DNA of 64,000 bases. It comes from Onchidella celtica. Taxonomy: Eukaryota; Mollusca; Gastropoda; Systellommatophora; Onchidiidae. Below the pieces are notes generated by a model, which did no database searches, was not told the origin of the DNA, and saw nothing but the letters and a program-made list of their open reading frames with translations. This document shows positions 42,547 to 56,500 of the stretch, piece by piece. Both the position numbers and the translations under genes were made by a program. How positions within the stretch are numbered: position 1 is the first letter of the stretch; each line of letters starts with the position of its first letter. The stretch lies in contig OZ007572.1 of NCBI GenBank assembly GCA_963931925.1, forward strand, positions 27,277,191-27,341,190, written 5' to 3'.

Positions 42547-45500
42547 ATGCACCTGGCCATGACGACGATTTCATCCATAAGTTTACTACTGCTCAGCAAC
42601 CTGACCAATATGACCCTTGGCGAGACTGATCTGAGGAGATCAAAGATAGGTAGGCTACTGTGCAGCTGTATTTTCACGTGTCCGGAAAGAGCCAACAGAA
42701 ACGTCAAAAATCCGTCAAGTAGCCAAAAGAAAGAGTCTTTCCATGTGTACACAAACGGAGTTCTTTTTCATTACTTGGTATTTTTTTTACTCTTCCATTT
42801 TTGTAGACACGAAAACTCAACTTACTGGTGGAAACAGAAATTCCAGGGGCGGGAATGTGGGTGCATGGGAGTAGGAAGGAAGGGCCTCGTTTGCACTGAA
42901 GTCGAGGCGTTCTCACTACAGGCCGGTCAGCCGAATGTAGGTCAGACATGTAGTGGGCCGTCTCGCCGCAGAGAGACTGACTAGCATTAATTAAATAATT
43001 TAATACGTTTAGTACTACATGTATTACTAGAACAGAGGTCCACATGGGCTAGCTCAGATAATGAGAAATGTGTTCTAACTATCGCGTTTTCGGCATTACT
43101 TAGAACACACAAAGAACGCCTCGACTGAAGTACAATAAAAGAGAAGATCTAAAAATAAGAACGTACGTAGCAAATCTCGTGGCTGATCTTGATTGGTCTG
43201 TCAGAAAGTGTTACTCGCTTAGCCTTTACCAAATTGAGCTGTCTGTTGAAAGTGACTTGAAGATATAGATAGATAGATAGACAAACAGACAAACAGACAG
43301 ACAGACAGACAGACAGATAGATAGATAGATAGATAGATACATAGATAGATAGATACATAGATAGATAGATAGATAGATAGATAGATAGATAGATAGATAG
43401 ATAGATAGATAGATAGATAGATAGATAGATAGATAGATAGATAGATAGATAGACAGATAAATACATAGATACATAGATGGATAGAGAGATAGATAGATAA
43501 ATACATAGATACATAGATAGATGGATTGATAGATAGATAGATATATATAGATAGATAGATAGATAGATAGATAGATAGATAGATAGATAGATAGATAGAT
43601 AGATAGATAGATAGATAAATAGATAGATAGATAGATAGATAGATAGATAGATAGATAGATAGATAGATAGATAGATAGATAGATAGATAGATAGATAGAT
43701 AGATAAATAGATAGATAGATAGATAGATAGATAGATAGATAAATAGATAGATAGATAAATAGATAGATAGATAGATAGATAGATAGATAGATAGATAGAT
43801 AGATAGATAGATAGATAGATAGCTAGATAGATAGGAAGGAAGGCTATAACGTGTGATACAATAACTGTATCTTTACTGTGCAGCCATCATGCGGCTGTCC
43901 AATAACTGTACAACCACCGCCGTCCGGCTTGACCAGTACGACAGTGTCGAGTTGACCTCTAATACCTGGCAGATTCCAGACACCATCATTCAGGTGAGAT
44001 AATATGAAAAGATTGTTACGGAACAAAAAAATATTGTAATCCTCATCATCAGCGTCGACATGGACATCATCATTATAATCACCAGCTTCATCATCATCAT
44101 CGTCATCGTCGTCATCATTGTCATCATTGTCATCATCATCATCACCACCACTGTCATTATCGTCATCGTCATCATCCTCACCGTCATCATCATCATCGTC
44201 ATCATCGTTGTCGTCTTCATTATCATCATCCTCATCACCGTCATCACTATCATGGGCAACACCATCATCATTATCGTCATTATTATCATACTTTCATCAC
44301 CGTTATCATCATCGTTATGGGCGTCACTTTGCTCAGTTCTAAAATGTCAATGTATTTCATTTCTTTTGGTGGTTTCTATGTCAAGTTTTACATTATTCTG
44401 ACAAGCACTCCGACTTTCTGTTCTTCAAATCCTTCACAATGCACAGTAAACGGGGTCATGCTTCTCCGTTTTTAATATTTAACAATATGGATGGGCGGAT
44501 GGAGGGACGGGTGGATGATTGCGTGGGTGGATGGATGTATGGACAGACGGAAGGATGGATGGATAGGTACATAGGCAGATGGAGGGATGAATAGCTATAT
44601 AGATGGATGGACAGACAGATGGAGGGATGAATAGATGGATGGACAGGCAGATGGAGAGATGAATAGATTGATGGACGGGAAGATGGGGGATGCATGGATA
44701 GATGGACAGGCAGATGACGGGATGAATAGATGGATGGACAGGCAGATGAAGAGATGAATAGATGGATGGGTAGGCAGGTGGAGGGATGAAAAGATGGATG
44801 GACAGGCAGGTGGAGGGATGAATAGATGGATGGACAGGCAGATGGAGGATGAATAGATGGAAGGATGGATGAACAAATGGAGGAATTTATGATGAAATAT
44901 ATACCGCCACCAAAAATTAAATTCCAGAGTAATTCCACGTGCGTTGCTCACTTCATGACCGGGATCCCAGACCAAGGCATTTGTGTACAGAGCAGAAATT
45001 TGGAGTTCAAACAACCTGGCCCTGGAATTAGTTTACGTTTTTATACTTCTAAATATGGACCTGATCGGGTAAGTGATGTGGTCTCCGGGAGATTCATAAA
45101 GCTGTGTTTTCATATGTGTACGGAAACGGAAACGGCAAGGGAAACGCCAAAAACGTACCAAATAGTGAAATAGAATATTTTCATGTGTACGGAAAAAGCC
45201 GTTTCCGTATGCACGGAAACGTTGTTTTTTTTTTTTACTACTTGATGGATTTTTGACGTTTCTGTTACTGCCTCCGTTCCGTACACATGAAAACACAGCT
45301 TTACACGGCTATGGATAATTCACTGTCTACCTACTTACGCCATATTCTTGCCTTTAATTTTTATTTTGTTAAGAACAAGCTAAAGGCTGTAATTGAGTTT
45401 GTGCGAGATTTGTGCTTTGTGTTCGCAAAATCTATGAATTTGTTTCAAGTTCTAAGTCAAAATCTGTCGCAGCCTGGCGTAAGAAACGCCCCCATAGATT

Positions 45501-56500: not shown

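Follow-up and report, generated by a model that had tools for sequence, protein, structure and literature searches.

A nine-exon gene of the gastropod Onchidella celtica predicted to encode an orphan, single-pass receptor-like protein with an ITIM-like tail motif

The locus lies on contig C6 of the 1.14 Gb genome of Onchidella celtica, in a stretch of 64,000 nucleotides (positions 27277191-27341190) that was analysed as a whole and is hereafter called the window. A first-pass annotation, made from the letters alone, had described there an uninterrupted frame of 394 residues spliced from nine exons. This frame was reproduced exactly when rebuilt from the window sequence: the nine joined exons give 394 codons, GT and AG border 8/8 introns, and a TAG stop codon is present at 56498-56500 (Table 1). 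Joining began with eight exons, to which the one at 44928-45068 was added to complete the 394-residue model; its intron phases are 1,0,0,1,0,0,1,1. An AG directly upstream of exon 1 (42531-42532, acceptor score 2.0) suggests that a 5' untranslated exon precedes it. Elsewhere in the window, remnants of non-LTR retrotransposons are found at 24335-27752 and 14829-16028, with reverse transcriptase and endonuclease domains at 24335-27202 and a reverse transcriptase at 14829-16025; the frame 27177-27749, which adjoins the 24335-27202 remnant, has no Pfam match.

Table 1. Exons of the predicted gene and two further features of intron 8 (window positions).
Feature	Position	Strand	Content and remarks
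Exon 1	42547..42649	+	Signal-peptide-like start, residues 1-34; codon score at background
Exon 2	43884..43993	+	Module 1, part 1
Exon 3	44928..45068	+	Module 1, part 2; weak acceptor, good donor, no codon signal
Exon 4	46253..46412	+	Module 1, part 3
Exon 5	50336..50451	+	Module 2, part 1
Exon 6	52376..52510	+	Module 2, part 2; weak acceptor
Exon 7	53624..53774	+	Module 2, part 3
Exon 8	54607..54813	+	Stalk, transmembrane stretch, beginning of cytoplasmic tail
Exon 9	56439..56500	+	Tail end including VTYPEV; stop codon
Possible alternative terminal exon	56133..56161	+	Tail end ENGDRINQI, without ITIM; top acceptor of 148; no codon signal
Decayed partial copy of exon 6 start	56251..56296	+	In intron 8; 83% identity over 46 bases, AG lost

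With a codon model whose training set was limited to three long open frames from this genome (1500, 1551 and 499 codons), exons 2, 4, 5, 6, 7, 8 and 9 outscore 95% of stop-free non-coding stretches, and exons 1 and 3 carry no distinct codon signal, 31% of the null stretches scoring at or above them. The G+C content is 44-53% in all nine exons, compared to 38.6% for the window. At this base composition, 394 open codons would arise by chance with a probability of 1.7e-12, a figure that ignores the freedom of exon choice. When splice sites are ranked with untrained weights, which are approximate frequencies, 14 of the 16 fall within the top 3% of the AG or GT sites of the window; the weak ones are the acceptors of exon 3, equalled by 30% of AGs, and of exon 6, equalled by 19%. 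Either exon could be skipped in frame, leaving 347 and 349 residues, respectively. Exon 3 is the least certain part of the gene model, as it combines a weak acceptor with the lack of a codon signal. Owing to the codon usage of seven of the nine exons and to the G+C content of all nine, the nine-exon reading nevertheless looks real, and we regard it as a well-supported gene model.

Hydropathy places a hydrophobic, signal-like leader at the N-terminus of the 394-residue protein, ahead of a long ectodomain. The strongest hydrophobic stretch of 19 residues begins at residue 326 (mean hydropathy 1.95), within a putative helix at about 326-348, which is followed by basic residues and by a cytoplasmic tail of 46 residues. 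Basic residues past a single hydrophobic stretch are consistent with a type I topology, and the whole profile agrees with the layout initially proposed (signal peptide, one transmembrane helix, 46-residue tail). Seven motifs of the N-glycosylation type (N-x-S/T) are present, those at 18 and 21 being in or near the leader. The cysteines are located at 43, 76, 90 and 131 in the first module of the ectodomain, at 180, 209, 225, 237, 259 and 273 in the second, and at 368 in the tail. The ITIM consensus letters V-T-Y-P-E-V, to which the first-pass annotation had drawn attention, are found in the cytoplasmic tail at 375-380, and they are the only match to [ILVS]xYxx[ILV] in the protein.

It is exon 9 that creates VTYPEV, since the first codon of the motif spans the exon 8/9 junction; a mature tail that differed, through an alternative terminal exon or read-through of intron 8, would leave the ITIM absent or optional. 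With the same approximate weights, the acceptor at 56133 outscores that of exon 9 (9.4 vs 7.9), which comes second among the 148 AGs that were scored beyond exon 8. The exon 9 acceptor moreover adjoins a duplicated segment of intron 8, whose copies (55813-55918 and 56318-56429) are 505-511 bases apart and 74-81% identical, the second one stopping just before exon 9; apart from itself, the DNA of the exon 9 region matched only this local duplicate when searched. Against a different tail stand the coding-like codons of exon 9, for which the fraction of null stretches scoring at or above is 0.023, versus 0.60, 0.78 and 0.76 for the three terminal alternatives tested. Codon usage thus favours exon 9 over these three alternatives, and a mature tail other than the one ending in exon 9 appears quite unlikely.

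The ectodomain is made of two modules of about 135 residues each, encoded by exons 2-4 and exons 5-7. The exon lengths are 110, 141 and 160 in module 1 vs 116, 135 and 151 in module 2, and the phases 1-0-0-1 are common to both. In an unconstrained global alignment, the scoring of which itself favours cysteine matches, 4/4 cysteines of module 1 land on cysteines of module 2, as they do in 21/2000 and 20/2000 shuffles. At the residue level, the alignment of the two modules stays within the range of shuffles (z 0.94, 82/500 as high), and so does their exon-by-exon alignment (z -1.8, with 1974/2000 shuffles scoring at least as high); among 15 exon pairs compared for similarity, the lowest p is 0.051. 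Given that their intron phases agree and that their four-cysteine register is matched by about 1% of shuffles, the modules may derive from an ancient duplication of an unnamed fold, which is plausible but unproven.

The sequences of these modules were then compared with named families. Searched against Pfam-A, the whole protein returned no family at E up to 10, and its separate parts returned only ICAM_N (E 0.13 and 0.056; 12.4 and 13.6 bits, below the cut-off of 21); in agreement with the earlier statement that no named family was recognised, neither the whole protein nor its parts match a Pfam family above cut-off. The same annotation had described the modules as CUB-like. Two cysteine-bearing modules with matching phases do exist; the CUB part of the description is not supported, as both Pfam and a profile built from the same genome remain at shuffle level. 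This profile was made from ten CUB domains, three of which were assembled manually from adjacent exons; the ten score 90-149 bits by construction. Module 1 reaches 2.4 bits and module 2 reaches 1.2 bits. Of 1000 shuffles generated per module, 981 and 942 were scored, and 106 and 105 of these equalled or exceeded the score of the real module; in a repeat, 225/2000 and 187/2000 did so. Furthermore, the window is absent from the best 150 scored of 391 candidates in a genome-wide CUB search. A membrane-anchored pair of diverged CUB domains would account for the spacing of C180, C209, C237 and C259 in module 2 (29, 28 and 22), which by eye resembles what we take to be the CUB pattern, and for the module borders, CUB modules habitually having phase 1 borders. 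Module 1 has only four cysteines, spaced differently, which, added to the profile scores, makes this explanation distinctly improbable. CUB membership (PF00431) thus receives no support from Pfam or from the own-genome profile with its shuffle controls: the protein shares with CUB-domain proteins extracellular cysteine-bearing modules and phase 1 borders, and differs from them in that no match to a CUB profile could be detected. Exons for CUB domains form large clusters elsewhere in the genome, on contig C16 at about 15.4-16.5 Mb and 43.7-46.4 Mb.

Alternatively, the modules could be two diverged immunoglobulin-like domains that have lost the canonical cysteine pair, as NGEYRFSF and SDTGFTFTA resemble by eye an Ig F strand and as the weak ICAM_N matches, under their cut-off, point in the same direction. 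An I-set profile made from 26 of 30 domains fetched from the same genome (the four left out being minus-strand loci) nevertheless gives only 0.3 bits for module 1 and 0.5 bits for module 2, reached by 210/2000 and 148/2000 shuffles. Immunoglobulin membership is not supported by this profile or by a Pfam result limited to sub-cut-off ICAM_N, and we give little credence to diverged Ig domains. Neither CUB nor Ig is supported for the ectodomain by these sequence comparisons. Two matches to sequences of the PDB were dismissed as chance, namely Cry6Aa (E 0.036 with the whole protein, 0.01 with module 1) and a beta-glucosidase (module 1, E 0.68); module 2 matched no PDB sequence at E up to 10. On contig C15, at about 35.87-35.91 Mb, Ig domains occur about every 1.8 kb, many with identical scores.

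Queried with the whole protein, with module 2 and with the transmembrane/tail part, the 1.14 Gb genome yielded no credible second copy of the gene. A match on C2 (E 0.9) was rejected as a copy, being of low complexity and containing four stops, and module 2 gave four further matches at E 4.1-7.4. The same genome contains 33 matches to haemocyanin beta-sandwich domains, all on C7; two were compared with the PDB, one of which corresponds to haemocyanins, including KLH, and the other has no match. These haemocyanin clusters bear out the probable molluscan origin proposed from the letters alone.

We take VTYPEV to be akin to the mammalian VTYAxx motifs. An ITIM match is found in 1260/20000 shuffled tails (6.3%). 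Among the open segments of the window that end in a stop and have at least 46 codons, 554 in all, 72 (13%) carry one in their last 46 residues. Because of these rates, the ITIM letters alone are close to chance frequency and constitute weak evidence. The YPEV core also fits a YxxPhi endocytosis signal, which 7673/20000 shuffled tails contain as well. A literature search on CUB domain and ITIM yielded no CUB-ITIM receptor by title, and nothing when combined with mollusc or invertebrate receptor; PMC12064177 mentions neither CUB nor ITIM.

The partners that an ITIM would call for were looked at among the 54 SH2 matches in the genome, two of which, SHP2-like and CSK-like, were compared with named structures. 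On C12, SHP2-like SH2 pieces are located at 21042168, 21046278 and 21047055, the third matching PTPN11 best, and phosphatase pieces lie downstream on the same strand, at 21064732 and 21067075. They likely belong to an SHP2-like gene, the model of which is unproven since stop codons are reported in three of the pieces, namely the first SH2 one and the two phosphatase ones. A CSK-like SH2 is found on C1. Since exons of both types are present, inhibitory signalling would be possible in this animal. Many tyrosine-phosphatase pieces were also observed on contig C5, at about 3.3-4.2 Mb and 11.2-13.5 Mb, in apparent tandem arrays that could be a receptor-phosphatase expansion.

The protein could accordingly be imagined as an ITIM inhibitory receptor, in which ligand binding would lead to phosphorylation of Tyr377 by a Src-family kinase, and SHP2 would then dock on VpYPEV and damp haemocyte activation. 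In addition to the fit of VTYPEV to the consensus, this possibility has in its favour the strong acceptor and coding-like codons of exon 9, the SHP2-like and CSK-like pieces of the genome and, from passages of PMC11999971, the existence in oyster of an Ig-type signalling receptor family (CgIgIT2). The frequency of the motif in shuffled tails and in open window segments speaks against it, as does the presence of one motif only, and we consider this inhibitory pathway unlikely. It is not exclusive of the explanation of the locus as an orphan single-pass membrane protein, with which it is compatible. A more specific version, in which a mollusc inhibitory receptor with an undescribed four-cysteine double-module ectodomain would have its only signalling motif switched on or off by the choice between the terminal exons at 56439 and 56133, is very improbable.

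All these results lead us to the preferred reading: the locus probably holds the gene of an orphan molluscan type I single-pass receptor-like protein, resembling Biomphalaria PTC2 in layout. It is filed as an orphan surface protein and not as a demonstrated immune receptor, because its ectodomain has no match among the families searched and its motif is near chance; the chance that it exerts a true inhibitory immune function is, in our view, small. The ectodomain, whose fold is not assignable from sequence, would be disulphide-bonded and would bind an extracellular ligand. The Tyr377 motif could then act by two routes, either being phosphorylated and recruiting an SH2 protein, an SHP2-like gene being present, or serving as a YxxPhi endocytosis signal. 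A likely description is that of a receptor or adhesion protein that either docks SH2 proteins or is internalised through its motif. On present evidence, this is one more gastropod single-pass orphan without named domains; being well delimited and having a tail motif, it offers a convenient case for asking whether gastropod orphans signal via SH2 phosphatases.

Receptors with tyrosine motifs are known in invertebrates, and a mollusc ITIM would therefore not be new as such. In extracts of PMC12065747, the fester co-receptors of Botryllus bear an ITIM or a hemITAM, some of them swapped by alternative splicing, and belong to the Ig superfamily within the fuhc histocompatibility locus. An ITIM or a related tyrosine motif is what our protein has in common with these co-receptors and with the Hydractinia allorecognition genes, all of them from invertebrates; it differs from the Botryllus receptors, with their Ig-superfamily membership and fuhc location, in being an orphan for which no second copy was found. 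According to portions of PMC11999971, oyster CgIgIT2 is a transmembrane receptor with five Ig domains and a motif termed ITAM, and the reference list (ref. 94) includes a title reporting IgIT-mediated inhibition. The likeness to CgIgIT is one of general type, a transmembrane receptor of a mollusc bearing a tyrosine signalling motif; the five Ig domains and the ITAM set the oyster receptor apart from the orphan protein, in which no Ig domain is detectable.

The gastropod PTC2 and GRC proteins offer another comparison, as far as the available passages describe them. The ectodomains of GRC members are beta-rich, their helix is flanked on each side by more than 50 residues, and 4/7 contain fibronectin III domains (PMC4361660); the orphan protein fits this description only in part because its tail has 46 residues. 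The Biomphalaria genes are also clustered and hyperpolymorphic; of the orphan gene, no second copy was found. Single-pass proteins account for 11% of Biomphalaria glabrata genes, and the PTC2 members among these are single-pass (TM1), of 166-530 codons and without known domains (PMC7494358). By layout only, the orphan protein corresponds to PTC2, having 394 codons, a helix at about 326-348 and no Pfam family above cut-off. It shares with PTC2 and GRC, as described in these extracts, a gastropod origin, one helix away from the N-terminus and a large N-terminal ectodomain, and some of the domain-less single-pass proteins of gastropods map to parasite-resistance regions (PMC4361660, PMC7494358).
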